Of a DNA stretch of 39,793 bases, positions 2,223-32,923 are shown piece by piece. The notes below the pieces were generated by a model. That model saw only the letters and a list, made by a program, of their open reading frames with translations, was not told the origin of the DNA and made no database searches. Source of the DNA: Thermoplasmatota archaeon (GTDB lineage: Archaea; Thermoplasmatota; Thermoplasmata; Thermoplasmatales; Thermoplasmataceae); contig JAMDBW010000074.1 of assembly GCA_023487765.1 (NCBI GenBank), positions 1-39,793 on the forward strand, read 5' to 3'. The translations under genes were made by a program, and so were the position numbers. Within the stretch, counting starts at the first letter, position 1. Each line of letters opens with the position of its first letter.

Positions 2223-3521
2223 TTATTTCCCGGAATTATCCAGCAGATGATCCGGGATTTTTGTGTTCCGGACGAAATCCTCGAATTTATCACGTTCTCT
2301 CACGACATGAATTCCGTCATCAGAAAGAAGTATCTCCCTGGCTCTTGTCCTTCCATTGTAATTACTGCTCATGCTGCTGACGTATGACCCCGATGTAAAC
2401 ACGGCTATGATATCATCAATCCTGGCTTCAGGAAATTCCCGTTCTTTTGCGATCCTGTCAGTGTTCTCGCATATCTGGCCGACAATTTCCTTTGGACCTG
2501 ACAAAGCCCGGGAAAGGTCATTTGCCAGAACGATATGGTGATAAGCACCATACAGTGCAGTTCTCAACATGATATTCATGCCAATATCCGTGCCCACAAA
2601 GGTCTTTGTATAGGACTTGATGTTGTTCACCCTCCCGAGAAGAACGGTAGTATCTGCAGAAATATACCTTCCAGGCTCAATCAGTAACTTAGGATTGCCA
2701 AGACCGTATTGCGCGTTTGCTTTCTCCAGACTATTTATAACGCTGCTGGCAACAGTATCGACGTTGAGCTCTTTCTCTTCCGGCCTGTAAGGAACTCCAA
2801 ATCCTCCGCCGAGGTCAATGAAATCGAATTTGATGCCCGTTTCACGGGAAATTCTTCCTGCAGCATTAAAAATCTCTCCCGCTACGTGCTCAAAATGATC
2901 AGGAGACAGTACATTAGATCCAATCATCACGTGGATTCCAAATTTTCTCACGCCAATTTCACGGGCTTGTCTGTAGGCTTCCGCTGCATAACTCTCCGGC
3001 ATTCCAAACTTTGCGTTTGGACCAGCAGTGGTCGTGCCTGGAAATTCCCCCTTCTCTATGTTCAGGTTTATTCTGAACGAGGCAGTTTCCGGGTGTTTAT
3101 CGCCGAGGATATTCAATTGACCGATGTCGTCAAAATTTACGGCGACGCCGTTTTTTAATGCTTCCAGCAGTTCATCCCTGCTGGCATTATTCGGTGAGAA
3201 TAGTATCTTTTCAACCGGAACCCCGCAATATCTGGCGATATTCAGTTCATTAATGGAAGAAACGTCCACTCCCGATCCTTCATCCCTCAGGATTGAGATC
3301 ACAGCAGGGTTGGAATTTGATTTTATTGCGTACCGGATTTCAAAGCGAGAATACAGTGATGAAAATGCGTTATATATTCTCCGATAATTTTCCCTGAGTC
3401 TTTTTTCGGAAGTAACCAGGAGTGGTGTTCCGTGGAGGTCACACAACTCACAAAGGTCGTGATCTTCCAGGAATAATCTGTTATCTCTGCTGGTGAACGG
3501 TGGAAAAATTACTTGATTCAT
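2223..3521 (-). CDS. lysA: Diaminopimelate decarboxylase-like PLP enzyme (fold type III)
   Basis: IRYAIKSNSNPAV (PLP Lys), GIHVMIGSNV (variant of HxHIGSQ), DLGGGFGVPY, IEPGRYI, CENTD (variant of CESSD), FTSGSYVSSMSSNYNGRTRAREIL. Confidence 0.85.
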   Translation of the reverse strand: MNQVIFPPFTSRDNRLFLEDHDLCELCDLHGTPLLVTSEKRLRENYRRIYNAFSSLYSRFEIRYAIKSNSNPAVISILRDEGSGVDVSSINELNIARYCGVPVEKILFSPNNASRDELLEALKNGVAVNFDDIGQLNILGDKHPETASFRINLNIEKGEFPGTTTAGPNAKFGMPESYAAEAYRQAREIGVRKFGIHVMIGSNVLSPDHFEHVAGEIFNAAGRISRETGIKFDFIDLGGGFGVPYRPEEKELNVDTVASSVINSLEKANAQYGLGNPKLLIEPGRYISADTTVLLGRVNNIKSYTKTFVGTDIGMNIMLRTALYGAYHHIVLANDLSRALSGPKEIVGQICENTDRIAKEREFPEARIDDIIAVFTSGSYVSSMSSNYNGRTRAREILLSDDGIHVVRERDKFEDFVRNTKIPDHLLDNSGK

Positions 3522-3543
3522 CGGGGGATGAATCCCGGTCAGG

Positions 3544-3554
3544 ATATAAATAAA
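3544..3554 (-). promoter_or_regulatory. TATA box for the lysA-like gene
   Basis: tttatttatat on the minus strand, ~23-33 nt upstream of the ATG at 3521, consistent with a leaderless transcript. Confidence 0.5.
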
Positions 3555-3566
3555 TCAATCATGAAT

Positions 3567-4676
3567 TCAGGTAAAATCTTTGTGAATTTTCGTGACGGTG
3601 TTTATGAGCAGTTGATCCACTATTTCATTTGCAGGTTTTTCAGCGTTGGTATAATTATTGACCGCTATGCTGAAGGATATCCCAAGCTTCCTGATGTAGC
3701 CTGACAGAGTTGAAACTCCATAGAGGCTTCCCGTCTTTGCTCTGACTTCAAATCCGGAAAGCTCTGAAAGCCGGTTCTTCAGCGTACCCTTTCCCGGGCA
3801 GGGCAAATAATCAATAAAATCACAATCTCCTGACTCTACGATTTTGTGAACAAGTTGGGACAGGAAACTTGTCGGGACAGCATTGAGTCTTGAGAGGCCT
3901 GAACCATCTGCAATGCTGATTCCGGAAATATCCAGTCCCAATTGATCCAGGAAGTTCATTATAATTTTGATGGAATCGCTCCAGCTACCTCTTCTGTTCT
4001 GAATTGCGTGGGAAAGATATTTTGTCAGAACCTCGGTGGAGAAGTTGCAGCTCACTTCTTCAATGTGACCCAGAATGTCTCCGATGGTTTCCCTGTGAGT
4101 AAAGAGAATTTCTCCTGCTTCTAAATCATTTCTCCGGATACTTGGTCTGCCGCTCTTGCCCATCAACTTCCATAACGCCTTTCCCAGGTTCTGGATTTGA
4201 TCAGGGTGCGCTAAAGTACCATCCGAATGACAGGAATCAGGGGTGTGTATCTGCCTCCCCCCCTTCATGTAGCAGCCCTCGTTCAATGAAAACGCGGAAA
4301 TACCACTCTGATAACAGAATGATTTGTTGTCTATGGCCCATCCTGGCGCATATCTCTGTCCGTCCAGGACCTTATCGGCGAATACCAGCCTGTTGATCTT
4401 TTCTCCAGCATTGCCAATAGCATCAGAAGCGCTGGTAAGATCTTCCCGGGAGAATAATGGCATAGGTCCGCCGCTGACCACAAGAGAATGGCCCCGTATT
4501 GAAAAGTCAGTTTCAAGTTCGTGGTTCTTTCCGAGAAGTTTGTATATTGCAAACCCGCTGATTATTTTCATATTCGAGGCGGGCAGAACAGGGATATCTT
4601 CGTTCATGGAGGATATGGTTTTGCCATCCCTGTCACGAAAAGAGTATGAGAGGAGATAATTCATGGAACGGAGCAT
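3567..4676 (-). CDS. D-alanyl-D-alanine carboxypeptidase/endopeptidase, S13 (PBP4/DacB-like), no evident signal peptide
   Basis: S13 motifs: PASNMKI (SxxK), VSCNFSTEVLTKYLS (SxN), IADGSGLSRLN, VRAKTGSLYGVSTLSGYI (KTG). TATA aatttataaatt at 4687-4698 may fit the internal Met at 4664 better as a leaderless start. Confidence 0.83.
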   Translation of the reverse strand: MLRSMNYLLSYSFRDRDGKTISSMNEDIPVLPASNMKIISGFAIYKLLGKNHELETDFSIRGHSLVVSGGPMPLFSREDLTSASDAIGNAGEKINRLVFADKVLDGQRYAPGWAIDNKSFCYQSGISAFSLNEGCYMKGGRQIHTPDSCHSDGTLAHPDQIQNLGKALWKLMGKSGRPSIRRNDLEAGEILFTHRETIGDILGHIEEVSCNFSTEVLTKYLSHAIQNRRGSWSDSIKIIMNFLDQLGLDISGISIADGSGLSRLNAVPTSFLSQLVHKIVESGDCDFIDYLPCPGKGTLKNRLSELSGFEVRAKTGSLYGVSTLSGYIRKLGISFSIAVNNYTNAEKPANEIVDQLLINTVTKIHKDFT

Positions 4677-4772
4677 CTTGAGGGTTAATTTATAAATTTT
4701 GAAAATGACTTTCCTTGCACGTCAATTATTATAAGAAATTATCCCCACATCATTGGGAGAAATAATGCATCT

Positions 4773-6093: not shown

Positions 6094-7194
6094 TCAGAAT
6101 TGCAGGTCCTTGAGGCCATTGAAAGTGATCTTGCCCAGCGGGATCAGCTTTTTTGCACCTGACGCTCCGGAATTTGATGTCTTCAGTCTTGATGAAAGAT
6201 AACCAATCACCGCAAATGCCAGCGCTTCGCGGAATTCATGGGGCACACCCATAGAATCGCTTACCTGAAATTTCCCGGGGAAAAGTTCTGATAATCTCTT
6301 TGTAAAATATCCATTCTTTACTCCACCTCCGGCGCAAACAAGCCTGAGGCCGGCAGGAAAATGTTTCCTGACGTTGTGCTCTATGCTCCGAACCGTGAAC
6401 TCGGCAAGTGTAGTTATGATGTCTTCCGGGGGATACTTCGAAAAAGAAGGATTTTCAAGTATCTCTTCAAGAAATTGGGAGCCAAATCTTTCCCTGCCGC
6501 AGCTCTTCGGAGGGTCCGCGTTGACGAATTCGTCTTTCATCAGCACATCGAGGAGCCCTCGAATCACTTTTCCGGAAAGAGCTATTGTTCCATCCTGGTC
6601 ATACTCCCTTTTGAACAGAATTCTCATGGCTCCGTCCAGAAGCATGTTTCCGGGTCCCAGATCGAACCCGGTTATGTGCTCACCGGTGAAGGAAACATTT
6701 GAAATTCCGCCTATGTTAAGAACCAGTAAACCGGGCCCGAAGAGTATACTGTCTGCCAAAGGAACCAGTGGTGCACCCATTCCGCCTGCAGCTACATCAC
6801 CTGACCTGAAATCTGATATGACCGGGATGTTCAGATGGACAGAAAGCGGTTCCACCGCTCCAATCTGGAATGTGCCTCCATGGACACCTCCGGACTGCTC
6901 CGCATGGTACAGAGTATGGCCGGAAAAAACGGCAACTTCGGGCCTATTCTTCATCTTATCTGCTGCCCGGATTAACTCCTGTCCTAAATTCCAATGGGCA
7001 CTGTTCACGCTCTCCAGAGATCCCCTGCCGCTGTTTGTCAACATAAGAAGTTCATCGCGAACGTGCGGCATAAATTCGTGGACACCGCTTTCAATTATGT
7101 GGAAATTTATTCCTCTTTCATTCTCTTCCAGATCAGCAATAACCCAACTTATGCCGTCTGTGGACGTGCCTGACATCATGGAAAGGACCCTCAT
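6094..7194 (-). CDS. anmK: Anhydro-N-acetylmuramic acid kinase
   Basis: MRVLSMMSGTSTDGISWVIADL, FSGHTLYHAEQSGGVHGGTFQIG, VISDFRSGDVAAGGMGAPLVPLADSILF, LNIGGISNVSF, GFDLGPGNMLLDGAM, VCAGGGVKNGYFTKRL. The start was moved from 7413 to the internal ATG at 7194, which matches the family N-terminus and removes overlap with the upstream gene. Confidence 0.95.
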   Translation of the reverse strand: MRVLSMMSGTSTDGISWVIADLEENERGINFHIIESGVHEFMPHVRDELLMLTNSGRGSLESVNSAHWNLGQELIRAADKMKNRPEVAVFSGHTLYHAEQSGGVHGGTFQIGAVEPLSVHLNIPVISDFRSGDVAAGGMGAPLVPLADSILFGPGLLVLNIGGISNVSFTGEHITGFDLGPGNMLLDGAMRILFKREYDQDGTIALSGKVIRGLLDVLMKDEFVNADPPKSCGRERFGSQFLEEILENPSFSKYPPEDIITTLAEFTVRSIEHNVRKHFPAGLRLVCAGGGVKNGYFTKRLSELFPGKFQVSDSMGVPHEFREALAFAVIGYLSSRLKTSNSGASGAKKLIPLGKITFNGLKDLQF

Positions 7195-7309
7195 GTGAAG
7201 TGCCTCCTGAAACAACCGGATTCCTGAAATAAAGTGAAGCCTGCAACCAGTCGGACATTCCATTGGACACGGGAAGGACCTACGAATTTTATTAGATACA
7301 TCTGACACC

Positions 7310-7999
7310 TTAGAGGCTTTTGTCGACTCTCCCAATCTTTTCGAATATTGAAAGCAGTTCCCTGGAATATTTGCTCCCGTCAGAGAGGTCTGTCGTGCTG
7401 ATGGAAGCGTCATGGCCGTTTGCGTGGATTATCCTGTTATTTCCAAGGTACAGGGCGACGTGATTCCTGAAGAAAACAAGGTCTCCCGGTATCGCTTTTT
7501 CAAATCCCGGAACATCGGCAGTGAAATCCCTCTGCCAGTCTGCATTGCGGGGGAGTTCCTTTCCAATGAATCTGTACAGCCTCTGGACAAAGCCTGAGCA
7601 ATCAAAACCGAAATCAGAAGTGCCTCCCCAGAGGTATGGTATTCCAAGAAAACCCCTTGAAAGTTCGGGCACAGAAAAATCGAAGTTGCCAATCTCCGTC
7701 AGTATATCACCCGGGAATCCATATTTATTCACATCTTCCCTGCTGACATAAGATCCAAAGGGGAATCTGGCGGTTTCTGCAATATAACTGGCCTTCAGCT
7801 TATACGCCCGCGGTTCTCCATCCACTACGAGTCTCGATTTCATGTATCCCTGAAGGCCGTCGCGTCCCTCAATGAGAGAATAGTCAGAGTGTGTGGAAAT
7901 TACCTTGAGTTCCTCTCCATAAATCAGTTGTGAATCTCTTTCAGATTCGAATTTTGGTTCTTTCCGGATATCCGCAACACTAATTCCGACGAAATACAC
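7310..7999 (-). CDS. NlpC/P60 endopeptidase with SH3b-like N-terminal region (YkfC-like gamma-D-Glu-diamino acid endopeptidase), no signal peptide
   Basis: RGFLGIPYLWGGTSDFGFDCSGFVQRLYRFIGKELPRNADWQRDF (catalytic Cys), GDLVFFRNHVALYLGNNRIIHANGHD (catalytic His residues). Confidence 0.9.
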   Translation of the reverse strand: MYFVGISVADIRKEPKFESERDSQLIYGEELKVISTHSDYSLIEGRDGLQGYMKSRLVVDGEPRAYKLKASYIAETARFPFGSYVSREDVNKYGFPGDILTEIGNFDFSVPELSRGFLGIPYLWGGTSDFGFDCSGFVQRLYRFIGKELPRNADWQRDFTADVPGFEKAIPGDLVFFRNHVALYLGNNRIIHANGHDASISTTDLSDGSKYSRELLSIFEKIGRVDKSL

Positions 8000-8176: not shown

Positions 8177-9157
8177 TTGGAACAAATGATACGGGAAATA
8201 TATGAACAGTCTGAGATTCTGGACAAAATACTGGCCTCCACCAGGGAAAGTATTGGCAAAGCAAATGCGGAAATAAGGAAAGCCCGCCGCATATTTCTCA
8301 CCGGCAGCGGAACCAGCCTCCACGCTGCAATGCTTTACCAGATATTGCTGAATCGAACAGGAATATCACCAGTCTCCATTCCGGCATCAGAATTCCATTA
8401 CTGGTTCACCAGGGGGGCAGTCTTTTCCGACAGTGTTCTCATAGTATTCAGTCAGTCAGGAGAAAGTTCCGATGCCCTCAACGCGGCAGGTTTCGGAAAG
8501 GAACTTGGAATGACCGTCATAGGGATAACAAACGGCGAGAATAGCGAACTGTACGAGTTATCAGATATTCCGATCTTCACGAATGCCGGCAAGGAAATGG
8601 CTCTGGCGGCAACAAAATCATACATCGCGCAAATTACGGTCATACTGGAAAGTTATATGCTTCTCTGCAACAGGGATCTGAAAGATTCAATTCCGGTGAT
8701 AAAGTCATCAATCAGGGAAATATTCGCCGATGAAGAGAACATTCGCGACATTGCAGGCAGACTCGGAAACCACGTAGTTTTTCTTGGTTCGAGATTATTA
8801 TTCCCGACGGCCCTGGAAGGGGCATTGAAGATGAAAGAATCCTCCAACACTATATCAGATGGATATGCGATCAGGGAATTCATACATGGACCCAAACAGG
8901 TTGTAGGCAACGGCACGAGCATTATCCTGCTGGATGGTGGAACCACAACCGGTGAAATCTCCATGTTGAGAGAATTCGGTGCATCTCTCACAGATATTTC
9001 CGAAAGTCCCGAATCGGATATACGGGTTCCGCACATAGACGATATCCTGAAGCCGATTCTCTATATAGTGCCTTTACAAATGATTGCTTATTACAGGGCG
9101 ATCAGCAAAGGACTCGACCCGGATAAACCTGATAAGTTGAGTAAAGTTGTCAGGTGA
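8177..9157 (+). CDS. SIS-domain glucosamine-6-phosphate deaminase/isomerase (GlmS isomerase-domain / NagB-II type)
   Basis: TTG start (ATG at 8186 as alternative); IFLTGSGTSLHAAMLYQILL, VFSQSGESSDALNAA, ATKSYIAQITVI, FLGSRLLFPTALEGALKMKESSNTISDGYAIREFIHGP; no glutaminase domain. Confidence 0.85.
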   Translation: MEQMIREIYEQSEILDKILASTRESIGKANAEIRKARRIFLTGSGTSLHAAMLYQILLNRTGISPVSIPASEFHYWFTRGAVFSDSVLIVFSQSGESSDALNAAGFGKELGMTVIGITNGENSELYELSDIPIFTNAGKEMALAATKSYIAQITVILESYMLLCNRDLKDSIPVIKSSIREIFADEENIRDIAGRLGNHVVFLGSRLLFPTALEGALKMKESSNTISDGYAIREFIHGPKQVVGNGTSIILLDGGTTTGEISMLREFGASLTDISESPESDIRVPHIDDILKPILYIVPLQMIAYYRAISKGLDPDKPDKLSKVVR

Positions 9158-9214: not shown

Positions 9215-10396
9215 ATGGTTGGACTGAACAGAAATCCGGACGGGAAACTCAGAAAATATCGTTTCAGCAGAGTTATAAGTGATGGCAATGTTATCGAAAA
9301 CGGGTTAATCGTCATCAAGGGGGAAAAAATAGCAGAAGTCGGGACGCCGGAACATTCCGATTTCATTGATTATTCCGATTACATTGCCGTTCCAGGGTTC
9401 ATAGATATACATACCCATGGAATGAAAGGCGTTGATACCTATGATCTCGATACCCGGTCACTGGAAGCGTGGTCTGCTGACGTGATCAAAACCGGAGTGA
9501 CGGGGCTTATTCCTTCAATAGTCTCGGCTTCGACTGAACGAATAGTCTCCTTCCTGAACACAGTCTCAGCTTTCCCCAACGAATTCCATCCGGGTAATCA
9601 CGCAGTTATTCTGGGCGGAAGACTTGAAGGCCCATACATTAACAGAGAAAGAAAAGGTGCCCACGATCCGGCGTATATAAGGAATCCACGGGCGGCTGAA
9701 TACGAAAGCCTTTTCAGTAATTTCTCCCGGGTACTGAAAATTATAGACGTTGCTCCGGAAATAAACGGTGCCCTTGAAATGATAAAGGCGTCAGGAAAAT
9801 CAGGAATCAGTGTATCAATTGGTCATACAGCTGCTGATTTCCCGCAATCCATGGCTGCATTTGAAGCAGGTGCAAGACTTGTGACACATTTTTACAATGC
9901 AATGAATCCATTCCACCACAGAGAAACCGGGCTCATCGGTTCAGGGATGCTGGATGAACGCATATACATTGAATTAATCTGTGACCTTAAGCACGTATCC
10001 CGGGAAGCCCTGAAGATCGCATTAACCATGAAAACCTTTGACAGGGTGATAACAGTGACTGATTCATCACCGGCCACTTTATGCCAGGACGGTTTTTACA
10101 AGCTTGGCTCACTTGATGTAGAAAAAAAGGGTGATGAATGCGTTCTTAAAGGAACTGACACCATAGCCGGAAGCGTAGTGACCATGGACAGTGAAATCAG
10201 GAACCTCAGGAACATGGGTTATCCGCTGGAACTCATCGTAAAAACTGTCACATCCAATCCGGCAAGATTACTGGGGTTGAGGAACATTGGATTCCTGAAA
10301 CCGGGATATAATGCAAATGTGGTACTGCTTGACAGGGAACTGAAAGTGAAATATGTCATTCTGGATGGAAAAATGCTTGACGTCGCTGAAATTTGA
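9215..10396 (+). CDS. nagA: N-acetylglucosamine-6-phosphate deacetylase
   Basis: VPGFIDIHTHGMKGVDTYD, GRLEGPYINRERKGAHDPAYI, SIGHTAADFPQSMAAFEAGARLVTHFYNAMNPFHHRETGLIG, ITVTDSSPAT. Confidence 0.94.
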   Translation: MVGLNRNPDGKLRKYRFSRVISDGNVIENGLIVIKGEKIAEVGTPEHSDFIDYSDYIAVPGFIDIHTHGMKGVDTYDLDTRSLEAWSADVIKTGVTGLIPSIVSASTERIVSFLNTVSAFPNEFHPGNHAVILGGRLEGPYINRERKGAHDPAYIRNPRAAEYESLFSNFSRVLKIIDVAPEINGALEMIKASGKSGISVSIGHTAADFPQSMAAFEAGARLVTHFYNAMNPFHHRETGLIGSGMLDERIYIELICDLKHVSREALKIALTMKTFDRVITVTDSSPATLCQDGFYKLGSLDVEKKGDECVLKGTDTIAGSVVTMDSEIRNLRNMGYPLELIVKTVTSNPARLLGLRNIGFLKPGYNANVVLLDRELKVKYVILDGKMLDVAEI

Positions 10397-10402
10397 CGGA
10401 CG

Positions 10403-11275
10403 TTGCAGAGTAGATATGCTGAGGCTGAAAATTTGACTGAGAAAATAAAGAGAACGGAAGACAACAATCCGAACAGTAGAGGAATTGCTGATAAGGATAT
10501 CCGGAATATTCTGGAAATTATTCACGCAGAAGATTACAACGCCTTTCGGGCCGTAGACGACGTACTGGATCAGTTATCAGTCGCAGTCAGGGAAACACAC
10601 AAAAGACTGGAATCAGGTGGCAGGGTGTTTTACGTCGGTGCCGGCACCAGCGGAAGACTGGCTGCCCAGGATGCTGTAGAACTTGAACCAACATACGGTA
10701 TTGGAAATGATAAGTTTGATTTTATAATGGCAGGCGGCAATGAAGCGCTGACACGATCTGTGGAGGGCGCGGAAGATGACGCAGATTCATCCAAGGAAGA
10801 ATTGAAAAAACGAGGCCTTTGCGAACTTGACACTGTTGTAGGGATATCAGCATCCGGAAGAACCCCGTTTGTCCAAGGTGCTATTGAATACGGAAGGGAG
10901 AGAGGTGCGCTGACAATCGGTATTGTGAACAATACTGGATCAATGATATGCGAAAGATCGGAGATCTGCATTGTCCTGGAAACCGGGCCGGAAGTGATAC
11001 AGGGTTCTACCAGGATGAAGGCAGGTACCTCCCAGAAAATAGTATTAAACGCCTACAGCACTGCCCTCGCTATCCTCCTCGGCAAGACGTATGACAACAT
11101 CATGTCGCACATGGGCGTGAAATACAACATAAAGCTGAAGCAGAGGGCGGTTAATATCCTGACCTCAGAGTTCAAAATAGGGACGACAGAGGCTGAAGCC
11201 CTGCTGGTCAAGTATAATTACCGGCTCGACAGCATAATAAACAGCTTGAGGAGCAATGACAAATTCGATAAGTAA
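10403..11275 (+). CDS. murQ: N-acetylmuramic acid 6-phosphate etherase
   Basis: NPNSRGI, RVFYVGAGTSGRLAAQDAVELEPTYG, IMAGGNEALTRSVEGAEDD, VVGISASGRTPFVQGAIEYGRERGA, TGPEVIQGSTRMKAGTSQKIVLNAYSTALAILLGKTYDNIMSHM. TTG start; TTG at 10433 as alternative. Confidence 0.95.
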   Translation: MQSRYAEAENLTEKIKRTEDNNPNSRGIADKDIRNILEIIHAEDYNAFRAVDDVLDQLSVAVRETHKRLESGGRVFYVGAGTSGRLAAQDAVELEPTYGIGNDKFDFIMAGGNEALTRSVEGAEDDADSSKEELKKRGLCELDTVVGISASGRTPFVQGAIEYGRERGALTIGIVNNTGSMICERSEICIVLETGPEVIQGSTRMKAGTSQKIVLNAYSTALAILLGKTYDNIMSHMGVKYNIKLKQRAVNILTSEFKIGTTEAEALLVKYNYRLDSIINSLRSNDKFDK

Positions 11276-11286: not shown

Positions 11287-12378
11287 TTACAGTTTTTCGT
11301 TGAGAAGATCATGAAAGATCCTGTTGTGTATTATTCTCCTGAACCTTAGTATTTTTAGGTTATCTCTTGTCGGGTACACCCTGTTTGCAAGGATTATGAC
11401 CATGATTTTACTGACCGGGTCAATACAGACAGAAGGGCCGGTGAAGCCGGTGTGTCCATATACTCCAAAGGGAGCATAATCTCCTACGAATCGTGCATAT
11501 CCGAAATCAGGACTGACGGCATTTGGTCTGGGAAGATTTATCATCCATCCGAGTCCGAACATACCTCCAATATACTCGTTTGCAGGTCTTGTTGCCATTT
11601 TCAGGGTTGCTTTTGAAATAATGCGCCCTGAGACATAATTCAGGTAAAAATTATGAAGATCATTCAGGTTCGAGAACAGTCCGGCGTGTCCTGCCACTCC
11701 CCCCAGATAGTATGAGTTCTCATCATGTACCTTTCCCCATAATAATCCACGATCTTCGCTCGCCTCTGTCGGGGCAATCTCTTTCCTGTCAAAGTCAGGC
11801 TGGAATCCCGTAGTCCTGAGATTCAGGGGAGCAGAAATGTATTCCTCAAAAAGTTCCCGTAAGGTTTTTCCGCTAAGCCGCTCCAGAAGGAACCCCAGCA
11901 GAATGAAATTCAGGTCGCTGTAGTTCTCTTCCGAATAAATTTTTTCAGGCTTGCAGACCTGTTCCATGGCAGTCAGGTACTTATCTCTTGTTTTCCCAGT
12001 TTCGTACATGGGTATGTGGGGAATGAAACCTGAAGTATGCGTCAGCAGCGATTTCACAGTCAACTTTTCAATGCTGGCGAATCCGCTGAAAACGCCATAG
12101 GTCTCAAGAGTGTCTTCAAGGGCGATTTTTCCAGTTTCCAGGAACTTGAGAGCAAGAGCAGCTGTGGCTGTCGGTTTAGTTAGAGATGCAAGGTCGTAGA
12201 CGGTCTCATTCGTGTATACAAATCCCAACTCCTTTATCTCTCCCACAGAATTCTTATAAAGTACTTTTTCACCCTTCGCAACGAGGACGCTCATGCCATG
12301 CGATACCTGTGGAACAGCCCCGACTATCAATTCATCAAGTTTCTTTCGGAAATTGCCCGAGAAGTCATCATCCATCAC
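11287..12378 (-). CDS. Serine hydrolase of the class C beta-lactamase/AmiE (YbbE) family; candidate cytoplasmic MurNAc-L-alanine amidase
   Basis: DLASLTKPTATAA (SxxK), ENYSDLNFILLG (YxN-type), LLWGKVHDENSYYLGGVAGHAGLFSNLNDLHNF (AmiE-like signature), YGHTGFTGPS; no signal peptide. Confidence 0.85.
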   Translation of the reverse strand: MMDDDFSGNFRKKLDELIVGAVPQVSHGMSVLVAKGEKVLYKNSVGEIKELGFVYTNETVYDLASLTKPTATAALALKFLETGKIALEDTLETYGVFSGFASIEKLTVKSLLTHTSGFIPHIPMYETGKTRDKYLTAMEQVCKPEKIYSEENYSDLNFILLGFLLERLSGKTLRELFEEYISAPLNLRTTGFQPDFDRKEIAPTEASEDRGLLWGKVHDENSYYLGGVAGHAGLFSNLNDLHNFYLNYVSGRIISKATLKMATRPANEYIGGMFGLGWMINLPRPNAVSPDFGYARFVGDYAPFGVYGHTGFTGPSVCIDPVSKIMVIILANRVYPTRDNLKILRFRRIIHNRIFHDLLNEKL

Positions 12379-12490
12379 GGTTTACCAGGTCCTGCGCGTT
12401 GATAAGTTCAAATCCTATTAATTTTAGTTCCGATCAACATGGGACCTGAGCAGAATAAAATAATTATCCATCAATTCATTGTTGAATTCA

Positions 12491-19983: not shown

Positions 19984-20129
19984 TCCATACGGAATTGAAT
20001 GGTAATTAAGAATTTGATGTAGATATGAAGATATGGAACTTGTAGTGCTTTTCTCAAAACGGGACAAAACGCGGAAAGAATTCAGATAGGAGTCCGCGTT
20101 GCAAATCTATGAGTTGAACCAGAATTTGA

Positions 20130-20402: not shown

Positions 20403-20594
20403 CGCTCCAATGACCTCTACGATTCAGTGTCTATCGATAACTTCTTCGACGAGTCATCAGGTGATGTAATAATTGAAGGTGGAGCTGGCAGTGGGCATGC
20501 AATGCTCTACGTTAGAAACAATTTAGTGATACAGAGTGACCCTGCTGCAATCATAGCAGTTGTGTTGCCTGCGCATAAAAGAAACAAAAATTAA
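20403..20594 (+). pseudogene. Truncated remnant of a second Amidase_6-like gene (paralogue of 4773..5996)
   Basis: Frame ending at TAA 20592-20594: NDLYDSVSIDNFFDESSGDVIIEGGAGSGHAMLYVRNNLVIQSDPAAIIAVVLPAHKRNKN*, vs intact SMFPSYFLSPGDVIVDGGAENGHATLYAGNGTVIQTDPAGMW. Confidence 0.75.
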
Positions 20595-21640: not shown

Positions 21641-21666
21641 TTAATTCACCCTTCCCACAATGGAAT

Positions 21667-23561: not shown

Positions 23562-23565
23562 TTTC

Positions 23566-24555
23566 TCACCTCAACTCCACTCTTGGATCCAGATATGCAT
23601 AGAGGATATCGGAAATAAAATTCGCTATAATGACTGTAAGGGTAATCATCAGGAATATGCCATCAACGAGTGGGTAATCAAGGGATGTAACAGCGACATA
23701 AAGGGCATCGCCTATTCCTGGATACGAGAACACAACTTCTACAAAGAATGCTCCGGCCACAACATAACCAAAAGCTAGGACTATGTGCGTTGCAACTGGC
23801 AGAACAGCGTTTCTGGCAGCGTAGTTTTTCACGATCAATCTTTCAGGTATTCCCTTTGCTTTTGCCAGCGTGAGATAATCTTCCCTGTTCTGGTTCACCA
23901 TCGTATTACGCATGGTAAGGGAGAATCCGGGAAACGACACGAGAACAAGTGTGAAAATAGGCAATATACTATGCTTTATAACACTCAGGATGAAGGCTGC
24001 CGTGAAGGAAGGGACCAGTGTAACAGAGAAGGCACCGGATATGGGAAGCAGATTTGTAAGGTAAAGCGCAAAAACAAGCTGGAATATCACTGCTATCCAG
24101 AAGAATGGTATAGAGGTGAGTCCCATAAAGAGGGCAGAAACAAAGGTTTCTTTCCTTGTCCCGCTGTGCCATCCGATATATTTCCCGACAATTACGCCTA
24201 TAAGAGATGATATTGCAGTGGAGGTCCCAAGAAGATAAAGTGTCCAAGGAAGGTGAGTTGCAATTACATTAACAACCGTTGATGGGTAATAGTAGTATGA
24301 AATTCCCAGGTTTCCGTGAAATAACTCAATGATATAACGCTGAAACTGATACCATAGACTTGGGTTCTGGAGCCCGAATTGTGACTCAAGAAGCTTGATC
24401 TGGTTTGGGGGAAGGTAATGATATTTTGTCAGAAGAATTGTGTAAACTGGATTTCCAGGAACCAACCTGGGCAGGAGGAAATTGATAATTAACGCAATGA
24501 TTGCGGTGACAATGGCATAGCTCGTTCTAGTTGCCAGATATTTTCTAGTAATCAT
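23566..24555 (-). CDS. Oligo/dipeptide ABC transporter permease (DppB/OppB type)
   Basis: FLLPRLVPGNPVYTIL, GNLGISYYYYPSTVVNVIATHLPWTLYL, LAKAKGIPERLIVKNYAARNAVLPV, VEVVFSYPGIGDALY. Confidence 0.92.
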   Translation of the reverse strand: MITRKYLATRTSYAIVTAIIALIINFLLPRLVPGNPVYTILLTKYHYLPPNQIKLLESQFGLQNPSLWYQFQRYIIELFHGNLGISYYYYPSTVVNVIATHLPWTLYLLGTSTAISSLIGVIVGKYIGWHSGTRKETFVSALFMGLTSIPFFWIAVIFQLVFALYLTNLLPISGAFSVTLVPSFTAAFILSVIKHSILPIFTLVLVSFPGFSLTMRNTMVNQNREDYLTLAKAKGIPERLIVKNYAARNAVLPVATHIVLAFGYVVAGAFFVEVVFSYPGIGDALYVAVTSLDYPLVDGIFLMITLTVIIANFISDILYAYLDPRVELR

Positions 24556-24604
24556 CTAATCACATCAAAAAAAGGGAAAAAAATGGATTTAAAATAGTTT
24601 ATGT

Positions 24605-26398
24605 TTATTTTTCTTCCTTACCCTTCTTTCCTTTGAGGGTGTAGACGACTACTCCTCCAACGACGATAGCAGCAACAACTCCGCCAAGGACATAATACAG
24701 CGTGCTACTGCTGGAAACTGGTGCAGGAGGTGTGTAGGAGGATGTTATCTGCATCAGATTGTAAGGACTGTCCATTGTCAGGTTCGGAAGGAATCCCTGT
24801 ACCATCTTGCTGTTGTAGGCATAGTAATTGTTTGCGTTTCCTATTGGAACCATTGGGACCTGGTTGTCAATGATCTGCTGCATCTGGTTGAGGTCATTTG
24901 TGTAATTAGAACCAGTTGCACTGACGGTCGTGTTGAACAGACCATTCAGTGAAGCGTTGGAGAAGTGCTCAACATTCCAGAATCCACCATTATAGTCATA
25001 TGGTGCCTGTAGCTGTATATATGGATTCGTGAATGATGGAACGTATCCGAAGTATGTCAGGGTTGTGAAGTTGGCACCGAACGTGTCGCTGCCCCACGTA
25101 CTGAACGGAACGTTTTGCAAAACTGCGTTGATTCCCAACACCTTGAGATCAGACTGTATGAATGTTCCCGCTGCCTGCCAGTCAGCAACCGGCGGTTCCT
25201 GAATGGTTAATGTAAGCTGCTTGAGGGATGTATTGTTGAGGAGTTCTACTCCTGAAGATGTTATATTCTGGTGATAACCCGCAAGTTCAAACTGATGGAG
25301 AGCCTTTGTGTCATTGAACGAGTAGTTAGTGAGACCTGGCGCCCAGTATGCTTTAAGCACTGTTGGAAGACCTCCGTATGAGATGTTTGAACCCCATGAT
25401 CCGAGTCCGTCTTCAGCTTTCTGCATGATCTGTGTCTTGTTTATCGCGTATGCCAGACCCTGCCTGAAGTGCGGGTTTGAGAATGTTGGAAGCGTGTCGT
25501 TCATCCACAGGTAGAATGTCCACGGCTCAACCTGGTTCACGTTTGTTATATTTGCTGTTCCGGAAAGTGCGTTATAATCACTCAGTGAGGGGAATACACC
25601 GGCTATGGATCCATCCTCAAGTGAAAGTGTTGCTGCAGAAGTGGATTTGAACTTCTCAACATAGAAGGTTTCTATGTGAGGTGCTCCCATCCAGAAGTGA
25701 GTGTTTGCAACAAGGATTGCACCCGCAGATGATATATTCTCCAGTGTGAATGGGCCGGCAGAAATCTCCTGTCCGTATGGTCCCATATTCGTGTAGCTTC
25801 CGATGTTTGCTGGCGTTCCATTGTCATATTGGTTCCATGAAGCAGGTACGATTGTCTGTGAAGTAACGTACAGGAACCAGAGTGAACTTGTTGTGTTGAA
25901 GTTGAATGAGACTGTGGAGTTGTTATCCCATGATTTGACGCTGGTAAGGTGCGATGCCAAATTGTATGAGTCGAGAGAACTGTTTTTGGTAATAGCGTTG
26001 AATGTGAAAACAACATCCTTACCGGTAATCGGTCCTACAACTGAACTTCCCTGCACCCAGTCGGCATTGGGATTCAGGTGGTATGTTATGTTTTCTGCTC
26101 CAGAGCTGTAGGCAATTGACCAGGAACTGGCAAGCCAGGGTGTAAATGTTCCATCAGCCCACTGGAAACCAAGTGAGTCGGCGTAAATTTCTTGGGTAAT
26201 AATGGTGGCAAGGCTGTTCGACGCTGTAAGTGGATTAAGGTCGCTGACCGATGTTGAAACCGGAGTTCCAAAAATAAACTCGCCCGAGGGTCCGGAGGAC
26301 GATGCAGCCGATGAGGTTGGTAACGCTGCAGTAAAACCCAAGGCAACAACGGCTAAAACCATAAAACCCACTATGATTTTCTTAATATTGTTAACCAT
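24605..26398 (-). CDS. Extracellular solute-binding protein, family 5 (peptide type), with N-terminal signal and C-terminal TM anchor
   Basis: Signal MVLAVVALGFTAALPTSSAA; HFRQGLAYAINKTQIMQKAEDGLGSWG; C-terminal LYYVLGGVVAAIVVGGVVVYTLKGKKGKEEK; first gene of the dpp-like operon. Confidence 0.9.
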   Translation of the reverse strand: MVNNIKKIIVGFMVLAVVALGFTAALPTSSAASSSGPSGEFIFGTPVSTSVSDLNPLTASNSLATIITQEIYADSLGFQWADGTFTPWLASSWSIAYSSGAENITYHLNPNADWVQGSSVVGPITGKDVVFTFNAITKNSSLDSYNLASHLTSVKSWDNNSTVSFNFNTTSSLWFLYVTSQTIVPASWNQYDNGTPANIGSYTNMGPYGQEISAGPFTLENISSAGAILVANTHFWMGAPHIETFYVEKFKSTSAATLSLEDGSIAGVFPSLSDYNALSGTANITNVNQVEPWTFYLWMNDTLPTFSNPHFRQGLAYAINKTQIMQKAEDGLGSWGSNISYGGLPTVLKAYWAPGLTNYSFNDTKALHQFELAGYHQNITSSGVELLNNTSLKQLTLTIQEPPVADWQAAGTFIQSDLKVLGINAVLQNVPFSTWGSDTFGANFTTLTYFGYVPSFTNPYIQLQAPYDYNGGFWNVEHFSNASLNGLFNTTVSATGSNYTNDLNQMQQIIDNQVPMVPIGNANNYYAYNSKMVQGFLPNLTMDSPYNLMQITSSYTPPAPVSSSSTLYYVLGGVVAAIVVGGVVVYTLKGKKGKEEK

Positions 26399-27107: not shown

Positions 27108-27926
27108 TCAGTAATTCCCATGATCGGTATTTGACAGCGACACCAGCACTCTGAAAGCCTGATATGCGTGAAGCATATCGCCTGCCTGAGCAGCCACAGT
27201 ATATGCATCGATCCTCTCCACTCCGGGGAATATCATGCAACTGTCCGCCATTCCTGAATTTTGAAACTCCAACGAGATACTAACCGGGGGCTCTACAGAA
27301 AATATTCTGCCTTTCAATGCCGTTGCCCTCTTCGCAGCAGAGGTCAACTCATCATCTGACGTTTCCATTGGCATGTTGGCTGCACTGTACCGGGAAATTC
27401 CCTCCTTCAGGACAACGAATTCAGCTTCTTCTAATACTTTGTTAGCTTCCGATACTGCAGCTTTATCGCCAGCAAAGAAGACCACAGGTTTCCCGAAGAA
27501 ACCCGCAACACCGGCACTGAGGCCAATCTCCCCCATTTCCTCACCATTGACCTTCAGGCGATGAACATTTGTGGAATATGTATGATCCAGAACCCCGAAG
27601 AGGGTTCCGGCTTTGCTATGGTAACCCAGAAAAAATGCCTTGTCGCATGATCGGACTCCTTCTACCATACTGAGAGGCTTCGGATAACCGGAAATAAGGT
27701 TCACACGATTATCTAATTCCGATGCCCGAATGTTCCGGTTTCCGTCGTGAGCATCGACAACGTATATTTCTTCGGATCCGCCCGACCTGATTCCCTTTGT
27801 GGTTGCATTGATGCTTCTGGTTGCGATCTCTCTGCCAAGAGAATACTCCTTCATTTGCGGTAGCACCTGTGAACCATGTGTTATTCCATTTAGCCCTTCC
27901 ATGTCAACTGAAACGAGGGTCCTCAT
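27108..27926 (-). CDS. dppA: D-aminopeptidase DppA-like, peptidase family M55
   Basis: MRTLVSVDMEGLNGITHGSQV, EIYVVDAHDGNRN, AFFLGYHSKAGTLFGVLDHTYSTNVHRLKVNG. Confidence 0.92.
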   Translation of the reverse strand: MRTLVSVDMEGLNGITHGSQVLPQMKEYSLGREIATRSINATTKGIRSGGSEEIYVVDAHDGNRNIRASELDNRVNLISGYPKPLSMVEGVRSCDKAFFLGYHSKAGTLFGVLDHTYSTNVHRLKVNGEEMGEIGLSAGVAGFFGKPVVFFAGDKAAVSEANKVLEEAEFVVLKEGISRYSAANMPMETSDDELTSAAKRATALKGRIFSVEPPVSISLEFQNSGMADSCMIFPGVERIDAYTVAAQAGDMLHAYQAFRVLVSLSNTDHGNY

Positions 27927-28045: not shown

Positions 28046-28543
28046 ATGCCTGAAAGCAGTTTAGTTATTGTTCTTGGGATGCGACTATCATCAGATACTA
28101 TCGGAGAGGAACTCGTGGGACGCATGGATATCGGGCTCAGAGTCATGACGGAACAACCAGCTGAATTTATTATGGTCTCCGGAGGTTATACCAACCCGAA
28201 AATTGACATCTCCGAGGCACTGGCAATGAAAACATATGCGATGAATAAGGGGATACCCGAGGAATCAATAATAATGGAGGAGCAATCGGTTGACACAATC
28301 GGCAACGGAATTTTTTCAAGAAAATTAGTCGAATCCAGGAACCTTGCGCACAAGATATTCGTTGTGACCAGTTGTTATCACACCCCGAGAACGAAGTATA
28401 TCTTTGATCACTATTACGGCGATAATTTCATTCTGAACTATGATTATTGTTACAATGTATTTTCTGAAAAAGCTCAGCTGGAGAAGTCTAAATTTTTGAG
28501 AGACCGTGAGTTCTTTGAAGATGCGAAGAAAAATAAACGTTGA
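28046..28543 (+). CDS. YdcF/SanA/ElyC-like DUF218 domain protein
   Basis: LVIVLGMRLSSDTIGEELVGRMDIGLRVM, FIMVSGGYTNPKIDISEALAMKTYAMNKGIPEESIIMEEQSVDTIGNGIFSRKL, VVTSCYHTPRTKYIF. Confidence 0.88.
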   Translation: MPESSLVIVLGMRLSSDTIGEELVGRMDIGLRVMTEQPAEFIMVSGGYTNPKIDISEALAMKTYAMNKGIPEESIIMEEQSVDTIGNGIFSRKLVESRNLAHKIFVVTSCYHTPRTKYIFDHYYGDNFILNYDYCYNVFSEKAQLEKSKFLRDREFFEDAKKNKR

Positions 28544-28680: not shown

Positions 28681-29763
28681 TCAACTTCCAAAAATCTCCG
28701 TCTTGGCATAATCTTCCGCCTTAAGCCTACCGTTGGCCTGTCCAGTTTCGTCAAAAAGATAGACTCTGTTTTTCTCCACATAAACTGTCTTCATTTTCCC
28801 CTCCGCAATCTGATCAAACTGTTCCCGGCGCACGCTAAAATATAGACTTTCGCCATTAATTCTCATGAGTACCAGCGCCTCATTGCCGAGAAGATTTATG
28901 CCCTCAATTTTACCAGTCAGCTCTATATATTCTTCTCCTTTGGCGTCGTGAGTTACGGCAACAGCTCGCGGTCTTACGCCTATGGACCCCGATTCAGCAC
29001 CAACTCCCTTCAGTGTCTCGGGAGCACTGAGAATATTCATGGGGGGACTTCCAATAAACGAAGCGACAAAGGAATTAACCGGTTGTTCAAAGACATTCAT
29101 TGGAGGGCCCATTTGTATGAGCTTCCCACCATTCATCACAGCAACCTTCGTGCCAAGCGTCATCGCTTCCAGCTGGTCATGCGTAACATATACGGTCGTT
29201 ATCCCGGTCTCATTATGTATTTTTTTGAGTTCAAAACGAACCGTGTCCCTCAACTTCGCATCAAGATTGCTTAGCGGTTCGTCCATCAGGAGCAGTTTCG
29301 GGTTTTTCACAAGGGCTCGGGCTATGGCCACTCTCTGTCTTTCACCACCGGAAATGTTACTGGGTTTCTTGCCCAGTATATGTTCTATCGCAAGAAAAGA
29401 GGAAACTTCTTTCACCTTGTCAATGATTTGCTGTCTCTCCGTATGGGCAATTCTCAGAGGAAACGCTATGTTTTCGAAGACAGTTTTGTGAGGATAAAGT
29501 GCGTAATCCTGGAACACTAACGATAATTCTCTCTTGCTTGGAGACAGATCATTAATTACGTTTCCGTCTACTATAACATCGCCGGAAGTTTGCTGAACCA
29601 GGCCAGCAATTATTCTCAATGTAGTGGTTTTTCCGCATCCCGAGGGTCCGAGAAAGACAAAGAAGTCTTTGCTTTCGATTTTAAGGTTCAGGTCTTCTAT
29701 TATGGTCTTATTTCCAATTCTTAAGTTAATGTTTTCAAGTCTAAGTTCTGTCAATAAATACAC
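28681..29763 (-). CDS. CUT1-type sugar ABC transporter ATP-binding protein (MalK/UgpC-like)
   Basis: FLGPSGCGKTTTLRIIAGL, NISGGERQRVAIARALVKNPKLLLMDEPLSNLDAKLRD, VYVTHDQLEAMTLG, C-terminal TOBE-like region (GVRPRAVAV). Confidence 0.93.
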   Translation of the reverse strand: MYLLTELRLENINLRIGNKTIIEDLNLKIESKDFFVFLGPSGCGKTTTLRIIAGLVQQTSGDVIVDGNVINDLSPSKRELSLVFQDYALYPHKTVFENIAFPLRIAHTERQQIIDKVKEVSSFLAIEHILGKKPSNISGGERQRVAIARALVKNPKLLLMDEPLSNLDAKLRDTVRFELKKIHNETGITTVYVTHDQLEAMTLGTKVAVMNGGKLIQMGPPMNVFEQPVNSFVASFIGSPPMNILSAPETLKGVGAESGSIGVRPRAVAVTHDAKGEEYIELTGKIEGINLLGNEALVLMRINGESLYFSVRREQFDQIAEGKMKTVYVEKNRVYLFDETGQANGRLKAEDYAKTEIFGS

Positions 29764-29766
29764 CTC

Positions 29767-30585
29767 TCATTTAAGGGCACCTGCAAATACGTTGCTCTTG
29801 AGATACCTCTGAAGCACGAGCACAAGTACAATGACCGGTATCATGAGTATTATGGAAAATGCATCTGCCGCTTGAACTCCACCTACGCCACGTGTGATTT
29901 CATAATATATGAGGACGGGTAGGGTAGTGTGCAGCGGGGCTATTATGGAAGCGAGCACAAATTCATCCCAGGAGAAAAGCCAGGCCAGAATCACTGCCAC
30001 ATATATTCCGGTTAATGCCAGTGGCAAATCGATACTGTAGAATGCCTGCAGTTTACTGGCACCATCTATCTGGGCAGATTCCGAGAGTCTTGACGGAACA
30101 CTCTTGAATGTTCCCACCAAAACATAAGTTATCATTGGCAGAGCAATCGAAGACTGCGCCAGTGCGATTCCAAAAGCCGTATTATATAGCCCGAGAATTA
30201 ACATAGTCCTGGCTATTGGTACAGCAATTACTATTTCAGGCACCATCTGGGTTACGAACAGGAATATAATTATCGAGTAGCCGAGGCGTTTTGGCATTTT
30301 GGAGATGGCGTATGCACCCGGAATGCCAAAAAGCAGACAAATTCCGGAGACCAGGAACGCCGTTTCCAGGCTGAGAATCAGGTGGGGCATGAAATCGTAT
30401 ACTGCGATCACAAGGAAAAATCTTGAAAACGTAATTGTTGAGGGGATCAGCACAGGACTCGAATTAAATATCTCGCCGGATGGGGCGAGGGCTATGATCA
30501 TAATCAGATATAAAGGGAACAAAACGAATATTGAAACAATTATCATAGCAATGTACCATAGCAAACTCTTACCGATATTATTCAT
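29767..30585 (-). CDS. CUT1-type sugar ABC transporter permease (MalG-like)
   Basis: Multiple TMs; ESAQIDGASKLQAFYSIDLPLALTGIYVAVILAWLFSWDEFVLA (EAA loop and W(N/D)EF motif). Confidence 0.92.
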   Translation of the reverse strand: MNNIGKSLLWYIAMIIVSIFVLFPLYLIMIIALAPSGEIFNSSPVLIPSTITFSRFFLVIAVYDFMPHLILSLETAFLVSGICLLFGIPGAYAISKMPKRLGYSIIIFLFVTQMVPEIVIAVPIARTMLILGLYNTAFGIALAQSSIALPMITYVLVGTFKSVPSRLSESAQIDGASKLQAFYSIDLPLALTGIYVAVILAWLFSWDEFVLASIIAPLHTTLPVLIYYEITRGVGGVQAADAFSIILMIPVIVLVLVLQRYLKSNVFAGALK

Positions 30586-31450
30586 CTGACCCTCTCTCCA
30601 TTAATCTGTTTGACGCATAAATGTACAAAGCCACAAAAATCATCACTATTACAAGAAGGATGGTTGCGACAGCATCTGCAAGATTGGCTGATCCAAGTGA
30701 AAACGAAGTATATATGTCATATGAAAGAGTTCCGAGAAACAGCAGGTTATTGCCAACAAGGATCAGTGGAAGTGAAAGTATATTAAATTCTGAAACTGCC
30801 CGGATAATAAGTGCGATCATGATAAAGGGGAACAGGCTGGGTATGGTCACATGTACAAATTGCTGGATCTTTGAAGCCCCGTCAATGGCGGCGGCCTCGT
30901 AAAGACTATCCGGAATAGTTTGCAATCCACCCAGAAGAATGAGCATGATCAATGGAAAGGTTTTCCATGAATCTGCTACGGCAACTGATAGGAATGCTAT
31001 GGGCCCCCTGATCCAGTTTATACCTGAATGTATCAGGCCCAACTTCAACAGTATCTCATTACCGTACCAGCCGGATGGTGCAAAAATGAATGTGAATCCT
31101 ATGGCGGAAACGACTGTGGCAACGCCATAGGGAAGCATAACAATTGAACGGAAAAATGTTCTTCCTTTAAAATTCCTGTTAAGGAGAAGCGACGTCAGCA
31201 AGGCCAGGGCAAATTCAATGACCAGAGCAAGTCCAACGATAATGACCGTATTCGTGGTTTTATTCAGTATTGAATAGGTCGGAGTGGCAAGCTGCTGGTA
31301 GTTATAAGTGCTATATCGTCCCAGGACCTGAAAACCAAGGAGTATACCTCGAATAATTGGCAAAACGTTAATCCATGAAATAAAAATTAAGAGCGGGAAA
31401 ATAAAAATAATTTCTAATAAATTTTTTTTAATTATTTTAGTGACTCTCAT
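30578..31450 (-). CDS. CUT1-type sugar ABC transporter permease (MalF-like)
   Basis: Multiple TMs; EAAAIDGASKIQQFVHVTIPSLFPFIMIALI; overlaps the MalG-like gene by 8 nt. Confidence 0.92.
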   Translation of the reverse strand: MRVTKIIKKNLLEIIFIFPLLIFISWINVLPIIRGILLGFQVLGRYSTYNYQQLATPTYSILNKTTNTVIIVGLALVIEFALALLTSLLLNRNFKGRTFFRSIVMLPYGVATVVSAIGFTFIFAPSGWYGNEILLKLGLIHSGINWIRGPIAFLSVAVADSWKTFPLIMLILLGGLQTIPDSLYEAAAIDGASKIQQFVHVTIPSLFPFIMIALIIRAVSEFNILSLPLILVGNNLLFLGTLSYDIYTSFSLGSANLADAVATILLVIVMIFVALYIYASNRLMERGSDE

Positions 31451-31459
31451 AATGTCCCA

Positions 31460-32923
31460 TCACGAAGTACTCTTTGGTCCCAAATAGGCTCCCGATGGAA
31501 TAATGGTTCCGTTCTGGTATTCTGACGGGTAAGCAGTGCCACCATAGTATATTTTCAGATAGTGGTACATGCTCGAGTGTGCCTGACTAAGGGCGTGCGA
31601 GACGTTTCCTCCATTCATAATAACCGACCATGCGCTGTCAAAGTAGTTATCCCACTGGGTCATCCATGGAACTGCTGGTCTGAAGATTCCATTAGATTCT
31701 TCGTACTTTATCAGCTTGAACTGAAGCGACTGTGCAGACGGCGTAGCATATGCCGCTTCATTCACAACAGGCCATGTCAGGTTTTGCATCAATTGTATCT
31801 GAACCTTCTTTGAATCAAGGAACTGTATCCAGTGAAGTGCTGCCCATAGGTGAGGTGTGTTGTTTACTATTCCCAGAGCGTCTCCTCCCACTATGAATTG
31901 AGCGATATTATTTGGTCCAGTAAATCCGTGGGTGAGTCCAAGTTCTTTTCCGGAAGTCACATTATGTGGCGCTATGGTTGTATTGTTCCATCCGTTGTTT
32001 GCAAGAATCGAGGTTATGTAAGGCCACTGATTCAAGTACTGGTAGTTGTTCGACATAAGTCCCTTGTAGGAACCCCAGTAGCCGGTTGCATTATACGGGG
32101 ACATCAATCCTGTTTTTTCCATATTCTGCAGGAAGGTCAGGGCTGCAATATCTCCGGTTGTGTTAAAAGCCATTGGATTTCCGCCAAATTCCGCCATCCA
32201 CTGAAATACCTGTGTTGGGGTGCTGGCTCCGCCGTGTCCCATCATGTTGAACGGACTCGCGTAAAGACCATTGTGAGTCGTAGAGTAATTGTTCAAGTCC
32301 CACATGTCTGCCTTCAGGTTCGTTACGTTCGTCGGGGTGGTAATATTGGTATACCCGGCTGATCTAACCTGGTTCAAAGCAGACTGATTGTAATACGCCA
32401 ACTGTACATTTCCTCTTACTGGGAAGAAGTAGAACGTTCCACTGAAATTCCCCTCATTATAGTACGCGGGGATTATTGATCCGTTTGCCGCAGTTGCAGT
32501 GGCTGAAGAATTCATAGGTTCAAGCTGTGACAGATAAGGAGTAAGATTCATGACAAGCCCGCTTGATACAAGCGGTCCAATGAAACCATTATCCTGCTGG
32601 ACAACGTCAATGGTTGGGGTAGGTTCTTGAGCTTGCAGTGTGCTAACAACAGTTGAAGCTGACTGAGTAGTGAACTGTATCGTCACATTGGGGTACATCT
32701 GTTGAAACTGCGGTTTAAGTGTGCTGTTGTAATACGCATATTCACTAGGTGCAAGCGATATGTTGACAGTAAGTACTGTTTTGTTCGATTTAGCTGGCTG
32801 TAGTTGAGTTAATGCAATACCAATACCTGCAATAATAACCACGATGACTACTATTGCAACGACAATATATGTCATTGGAGGCTTTTTGCCTTGCATTCCT
32901 TGAGGAGTATCTTTTTGCTCCAT
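31460..32923 (-). CDS. CUT1-type sugar ABC transporter solute-binding protein (family 1) with N-terminal TM anchor
   Basis: MTYIVVAIVVIVVIIAGIGIALTQ; substrate-binding pattern FQQMYPNVTIQFTTQSASTVVSTLQAQEPTPTIDVVQQDNGFIGPLVSSGLVMNLTPYL; first gene of the CUT1 operon. Confidence 0.88.
   Translation of the reverse strand: MEQKDTPQGMQGKKPPMTYIVVAIVVIVVIIAGIGIALTQLQPAKSNKTVLTVNISLAPSEYAYYNSTLKPQFQQMYPNVTIQFTTQSASTVVSTLQAQEPTPTIDVVQQDNGFIGPLVSSGLVMNLTPYLSQLEPMNSSATATAANGSIIPAYYNEGNFSGTFYFFPVRGNVQLAYYNQSALNQVRSAGYTNITTPTNVTNLKADMWDLNNYSTTHNGLYASPFNMMGHGGASTPTQVFQWMAEFGGNPMAFNTTGDIAALTFLQNMEKTGLMSPYNATGYWGSYKGLMSNNYQYLNQWPYITSILANNGWNNTTIAPHNVTSGKELGLTHGFTGPNNIAQFIVGGDALGIVNNTPHLWAALHWIQFLDSKKVQIQLMQNLTWPVVNEAAYATPSAQSLQFKLIKYEESNGIFRPAVPWMTQWDNYFDSAWSVIMNGGNVSHALSQAHSSMYHYLKIYYGGTAYPSEYQNGTIIPSGAYLGPKSTS

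Follow-up and report, generated by a model that had tools for sequence, protein, structure and literature searches.

Known murein salvage systems and a probable archaeal counterpart

In Bacillus subtilis, the peptide arm of murein (peptidoglycan) recovery is represented by dppA-E and ykfABC, which comprise an M55 D-aminopeptidase, an Opp/Dpp-type importer, a dipeptide epimerase and an SH3-NlpC/P60 protein. The genes of the sugar arm are found in the murQ-murR-murP-amiE-nagZ-ybbC (namZ) cluster of the same organism, whose AmiE and NagZ are extracellular enzymes, while Gram-negative bacteria recycle anhydro-muropeptides through NagZ, AnmK and MurQ (PMC5061867). Here, we describe a block of genes in which both B. 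subtilis arms, the sugar arm and the dpp/ykf peptide arm, are found together with the Gram-negative AnmK in a Thermoplasmatota archaeon of the Thermoplasmataceae; the block lies in a 39,793-nt stretch of DNA, analysed as a whole and referred to as the window. This block is very probably an island for murein scavenging that its wall-less host, a member of the class Thermoplasmata, acquired by horizontal transfer; foreign muropeptides would be taken up and then degraded mostly in the cytoplasm. An earlier report of such an archaeal island was not found in the open literature searched, although one may exist.

As in the B. subtilis murQ cluster, the genes encoding MurQ, an AmiE-like protein, NagZ and NamZ are clustered in the island (PMC5061867). 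In contrast to this cluster, the island contains neither MurR nor the phosphotransferase system transporter MurP and has ATP-binding cassette (ABC) import instead; moreover, its NagZ, NamZ and amidase carry no export signals and its host makes no murein. All four components of the dpp/ykf arm are present, but the island joins the peptide arm to the sugar arm and adds LysA, and an LdcA-like YkfA was not found in the window. NagZ, AnmK and MurQ without export signals are shared with Gram-negative recycling, whereas neither an SLT lytic transglycosylase (0/18 carriers) nor, in the window, an AmpG permease was found, and the substrate would come from other cells. The pathway therefore resembles recycling but is not recycling, because its host has no wall of its own. 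Two Chloroflexota clusters (L069 and L074) also carry OppBCDF-NagZ-NamZ-AmiE-BadF-MurQ in one block; however, these proteins are only 26-45% identical and the Chloroflexota MurQ proteins are not the closest relatives in the MurQ tree.

Archaeal peptidoglycan hydrolases that kill bacteria, with Thermoplasmatota as a prominent group, provide another example of archaea acting on bacterial murein; the 2025 study describing them requires a catalytic and a wall-binding Pfam domain and covers secreted weapons, and the portion of it drawn on here mentions no intracellular catabolic route and leaves open whether the enzymes serve as weapons or in feeding (PMC12352652). The island would add the intracellular part that had been missing, leading from import into central metabolism, and it does so in organisms unable to make murein. 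Archaeal nutrition on bacterial walls thereby becomes directly testable, a bacterial-type multi-gene catabolic pathway is found to be held in several archaeal families, and the secreted hydrolases gain a new candidate family.

Co-occurrence and conserved residues of the murein genes

The distribution of these genes was surveyed in 400 genomes from the class Thermoplasmata, with true MurQ defined by E values below 1e-35; weak MurQ profile matches in some 290 further genomes were discarded as shared SIS domains. True MurQ was found in 24 of the 400 genomes. AnmK was present in 15 genomes, all of which carry MurQ, while NamZ was found in 21 genomes (20 with MurQ) and a 407-amino-acid protein encoded in the window, discussed below, in 16 (15 with MurQ). 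Overlap of this extent had a chance probability of <1e-19 by genome and <1e-7 by genus, according to statistics that ignore relatedness. The exceptions are G001 and G005, in which further cluster genes are present but the contigs are cut off within the cluster; carrier counts are therefore lower bounds. In both genomes, the partial murein clusters (L176 in G001 and L173 in G005) are located at another site.

Catalytic motifs are conserved as well. The MurQ glutamates E93 and E121/E124 (VEGAED) align with those of solved MurQ and are invariant among 14 homologs, as are the SxxK/YS/HTG motifs of the AmiE-like protein (S65xxK68, Y153-S and H309-T-G) in the same number of homologs. AnmK keeps GFDxGPGN, which includes the catalytic Asp, and could be aligned with solved AnmK (8bre), with AnmK chains outscoring levoglucosan kinase. 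The listed AnmK frame of 439 amino acids extends to position 7413 and overlaps the NlpC gene; because the AnmK domain starts at residue 74 and the corresponding open reading frame (ORF) of the congener has 366 amino acids, the gene probably starts at Met73 of this frame. The SxxK/SxN/KTG motifs of the S13 peptidase (S34xxK37, S209-C-N211 and K314-T-G316) are invariant in nine homologs and C134, H180 and H192 of the SH3-NlpC/P60 protein, whose closest solved structures are dipeptidyl-peptidase VI and 3h41, in 12. NagZ retains the KHFPGHG...DSH motif of the Asp-His dyad, and E53, D101, D104 and D134-R135 are invariant among NamZ homologs, and some of these residues may be catalytic. The solved kin of the BadF-type kinase are the kinase 8zo3, which acts on N-acetylmuramic acid (MurNAc) and N-acetylglucosamine (GlcNAc), and the hexokinase 2e2n; as judged from the predicted specificity of AnmK and the BadF kinase, a route to MurNAc-6-P is present. 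The proposal that the archaeon eats bacterial wall fragments is thus supported by co-occurrence of MurQ, AnmK, NamZ and AmiE-type proteins and by the motifs kept in MurQ, AnmK and the AmiE-like protein, and the data suggest that the carriers, i.e., the window genome and at least twenty relatives, live partly on bacterial remains.

General scavenging of amino sugars and peptides from chitin, glycoproteins or protein debris, with muramic acid being incidental, would explain part of this gene set, as NagA, the deaminase, the GH3 enzyme, the BadF kinase, Opp and the epimerase all have wider uses and the BadF kinase is also hexokinase-like. However, the co-occurrence pattern is defined by MurQ, NamZ and AnmK, for which no use in the degradation of chitin or protein is known, and we consider general scavenging improbable.

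The block recurs in related genomes, with changes in gene order. In the congener G002 it is found almost gene for gene with the same flanking genes and mostly 81-94% identity, while it is found elsewhere and in other gene orders in G013 and G017, both assembled as single contigs (2.2 Mb and 1.9 Mb, respectively) and each 99% complete. Altogether, 18 regions in 17 other genomes, which represent several families, contain the same set in shuffled order, with mostly 30-60% identity outside the genus; the set is therefore no chance grouping. The 22 main archaeal sequences group together in the MurQ tree (support 95/75, and 96% of bootstrap trees), with 19 of them grouped at 100/100, and this group stands apart from 78 bacterial sequences. 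The six second copies group separately, and the tree fits one old acquisition plus a second one. The second, canonical MurQ (L019, L020, L021, L022, L023 and L025) represents an archaeal clade of its own, and in G006 it adjoins a second OppABCDF. One in-frame TGA was found within the MurQ frame of L037 (G402).

Replacements and additions of genes among these clusters argue for function more strongly than gene names do. A GlcD/D-lactate-dehydrogenase-like flavoprotein with an Fe-S partner is encoded in four clusters from genomes of one family, f3 (G045, L066:14704-17335; G038; G051; G060), which would be expected if D-lactate is released by MurQ. In the clusters of G068 and G111, the SIS deaminase is missing and NagB (PF01182) is found instead (L064:5888-6712 in G111), an M19 dipeptidase was added in three genomes, and LysA is also present in the clusters of G013, G017, G023 and G038. 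These genes bear on a second alternative, anabolic salvage, in which GlcNAc-6-P from muropeptides would be directed to the organism's own UDP-GlcNAc and N-glycans and not to energy metabolism. Although the isomerase domain of GlmS is a relative of the SIS deaminase and bacterial recycling often feeds synthesis, NagA together with the deaminase, LysA and the D-lactate-dehydrogenase-like pair of the relatives point to breakdown. Anabolic salvage is quite improbable as an explanation in its own right but could, as a branch, be compatible with catabolic scavenging of foreign murein.

Murein synthesis genes and the insertion site

MurB was not found in any of 23 carriers, whereas all ten bacterial controls were positive. 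Penicillin-binding protein (PBP) transpeptidases were absent from all 10 carriers searched, and no MurA or MurC above the cut-off was found in 10 carriers searched. The weak matches obtained (19-38 bits for MurC and 26-82 bits for MurA) lie far below the cut-off and also occur in archaeal controls, and we take them to be other Mur-ligase-fold proteins and 5-enolpyruvylshikimate-3-phosphate synthase. These results, which agree with the predicted lack of murein in the host, together with the absence of SLT lytic transglycosylases, indicate that other cells must be the source of muramic acid and its anhydro form. Bacteria use the same enzymes for recycling, but with these negative results for the carriers searched, recycling of a murein or murein-like wall made by the organism itself is a very improbable explanation and is excluded.

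The window corresponds to contig C36 of a 1.33-Mb genome, a fragmented metagenome-assembled genome with 70% completeness and 0.5% contamination. As originally proposed, the block is located between archaeal EF-2 on the left (TIGR00490, 1108 bits) and RpoL on the right, where the genes for PALP, OsmC, RpoL, a methyltransferase and GrpE-DnaK-DnaJ are located. In G013 and G004, EF-2 is directly adjoined by PALP and OsmC; in G001, G003 and G005 the EF-2/PALP interval contains a sugar ABC importer only, with no murein genes there, and in G000 and G002 it contains the murein block. Since sister species without the block have EF-2 next to the PALP, OsmC and RpoL genes, the murein block was inserted here and measures about 26 kb, and the empty or importer-only sites in other genomes place the island proper at about 2223-28543. 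Repeats of >=25 bases marking the island ends were not found. The importers of G001, G003 and G005 show 33-48% identity to the importer of the window and are encoded on the opposite strand. Because congeners that lack the island have a homologous importer in this position, the sugar importer of the window was probably resident there earlier and does not belong to the island. An island of approximately 31 kb with two ABC importers had been proposed; OppABCDF can be retained in it, but island membership of the sugar importer is unsupported, even though this importer may still serve the murein pathway.

An assembly or binning chimera, in which a bacterial recycling cluster was joined to an archaeal contig, might be suspected from the bacterial type of the enzyme families and the fragmented, incomplete genome, but the same set with the same archaeal neighbours in G002, its presence in single-contig G013 and G017, the separation of the main archaeal MurQ group from bacterial sequences, the empty sites and the even base composition throughout the window leave this explanation with next to no probability.

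Predicted pathway and a putative surface hydrolase

Apart from permeases, an N-terminal hydrophobic export segment was found only in OppA, the sugar-binding protein and the 407-amino-acid protein, and charged residues account for 8-11% of these three exported proteins compared to 20-28% of the soluble enzymes. NagZ, NamZ and the AmiE-like amidase appear to be cytoplasmic here because they lack export signals, and the S13 D,D-peptidase is probably cytoplasmic as well. Cytoplasmic enzymes would suit an acid-dwelling organism, with the acid habitat deduced from the class.

The analysis established the gene content, its conservation and co-occurrence, the predicted location of the proteins and the lack of murein synthesis, and knowledge of the respective families was used to assign substrates, import direction and flux. 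Bacterial murein would be cut outside the cell by the membrane-anchored 407-amino-acid protein, or shed soluble muropeptides would be used directly. Muropeptides would then be imported by OppABCDF, perhaps with help of the sugar importer, and the AmiE-like amidase would remove the peptide in the cytoplasm. NagZ and NamZ could split GlcNAc-MurNAc, the BadF kinase could phosphorylate MurNAc and/or GlcNAc, and AnmK could convert anhydro-MurNAc to MurNAc-6-P, from which MurQ would yield GlcNAc-6-P and D-lactate. NagA and the SIS deaminase would produce fructose-6-P, acetate and ammonia, while the peptide may be degraded to Ala, Glu and Lys by the S13 peptidase, NlpC/P60, epimerase, DppA and LysA.

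Scanning of the window proteins with Pfam and NCBIfam profiles confirmed each enzyme named in the original prediction at the place assigned to it (Table 1). This gene list was extended by one, as the ORF at 4773-5996 had been missed. The ORF encodes the 407-amino-acid protein, which is the sole enzyme of the gene set predicted to be exported and consists of an N-terminal signal or transmembrane helix, a Cys-His domain, a PKD/Ig-like domain and a C-terminal transmembrane anchor. C112 (SEDCAHFVS), H225 (GHA) and D239 (QTDP) are invariant among 15 homologs, the DC and GH motifs stand in NlpC order, and weak matches were found to Amidase_6 in all nine members scanned and to NLPC_P60 in six of them. 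The protein is a putative NlpC/P60- or Amidase_6-like enzyme that likely hydrolyses murein, with a proposed role as an extracellular endopeptidase or amidase. No wall-binding Pfam domain was found in this ORF, with only PKD/Ig-like matches in several homologs, and it thus falls outside the definition of archaeal hydrolases given in the portion of the 2025 study used here (PMC12352652). A remnant of a second copy of this gene is also found downstream of OppF in G002 (L015:18224-18400, minus strand), and the OppABCDF block with the remnant is inverted in the window compared to G002.

Several observations weigh against these assignments. The profile scores of the 407-amino-acid protein are weak (E of 0.0016 at best for Amidase_6 and 0.012 for NlpC, with an hhalign probability of 16%), the best enzyme-type chains in a PDB search were RipA-type murein endopeptidases with a weak E of 0.14, and a single-sequence AlphaFold model was uninformative (pLDDT 36). 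With regard to the pathway, BadF, SIS, GH3 and S15 are promiscuous families, muropeptide binding by OppA is assumed, and the enzyme activities are predicted from sequence. An LD-carboxypeptidase was not found in the window, which makes the earlier term "near-complete" a fair one. It is possible, with the balance tipping slightly the other way, that the ORF at 4773-5996 represents the first member of a new archaeal family of murein hydrolases that are acid-stable and anchored to the cell surface. Coupled to Opp import and to muropeptide catabolism in the cytoplasm, such enzymes would enable wall-less Thermoplasmata to feed actively on bacteria, living or dead, as a nutritional strategy.

Table 1. 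Features of the window, listed from left to right in gene order
Feature	Coordinates	Strand	Profile match or remark
LysA, diaminopimelate (DAP) decarboxylase (DAP to Lys)	2223..3521	-	TIGR01048, 358 bits (cut-off 298)
S13/PBP4-type D,D-peptidase, no signal peptide	3567..4676	-	PF02113, 150 bits; TIGR00666 over cut-off
Conserved membrane-anchored Cys-His protein, 407 amino acids	4773..5996	-	unannotated; not named in the original prediction
AnmK, anhydro-MurNAc kinase	6094..7197	-	PF03702, 242 bits
SH3-NlpC/P60, YkfC-like gamma-D-Glu-DAP endopeptidase, no signal peptide	7310..7999	-	PF00877, SH3_16
SIS-type glucosamine-6-P deaminase (GlmD/NagB-II/GlmS isomerase kin)	8177..9157	+	NCBIfam scan
NagA, GlcNAc-6-P deacetylase	9215..10396	+	TIGR00221, 261 bits, over cut-off
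MurQ, MurNAc-6-P etherase	10403..11275	+	NF003915, 310 bits (cut-off 168)
AmiE-like serine amidase (beta-lactamase fold), predicted cytoplasmic	11287..12378	-	PF00144
CocE/NonD (S15) hydrolase	12479..14179	+	TIGR00976, 348 bits
NagZ, GH3 beta-N-acetylglucosaminidase, no signal peptide	14219..15619	+	PF00933, 201 bits
GNAT acetyltransferase	15689..16546	-	orthologue elsewhere only in congener G002
Dipeptide (L-Ala-D/L-Glu) epimerase	16596..17663	-	PF13378; best NCBIfam NF041118, below cut-off
NamZ, exo-beta-N-acetylmuramidase, no signal peptide	17750..18844	-	PF07075, 206 bits (N-terminal); PF20732, 120 bits (C-terminal)
BadF-type kinase (MurK/NagK-like)	18958..20067	-	PF01869
Remnant of second copy of the 407-amino-acid protein gene, beside OppF	20454..20585	+	profile match, E 3.4e-11
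OppABCDF oligopeptide/muropeptide importer (order OppFDCBA)	20642..26398	-	OppBCDF in 11/18 related regions
DppA, D-aminopeptidase (M55)	27108..27926	-	PF04951, 282 bits; G013 59%, G002 about 50%
DUF218/ElyC-like protein, recurrent in clusters	28046..28543	+	PF02698
Sugar ABC importer: ATPase, two permeases, binding protein	28681..32923	-	homologues in G001, G003, G005

Among the other genes, the CocE/S15 hydrolase recurs beside NagZ in several related clusters, and might have an ester or amino-acyl group of murein as its substrate. No recognisable regulator was found in the island of the window; a protein that by eye resembles TrmB-type regulators is encoded near the cluster of G017 (L049:19327-20358) and also in the G038 region. 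A class II glutamine-amidotransferase-like protein (L018:13347-14075) recurs in G002, G013, G060 and G402.

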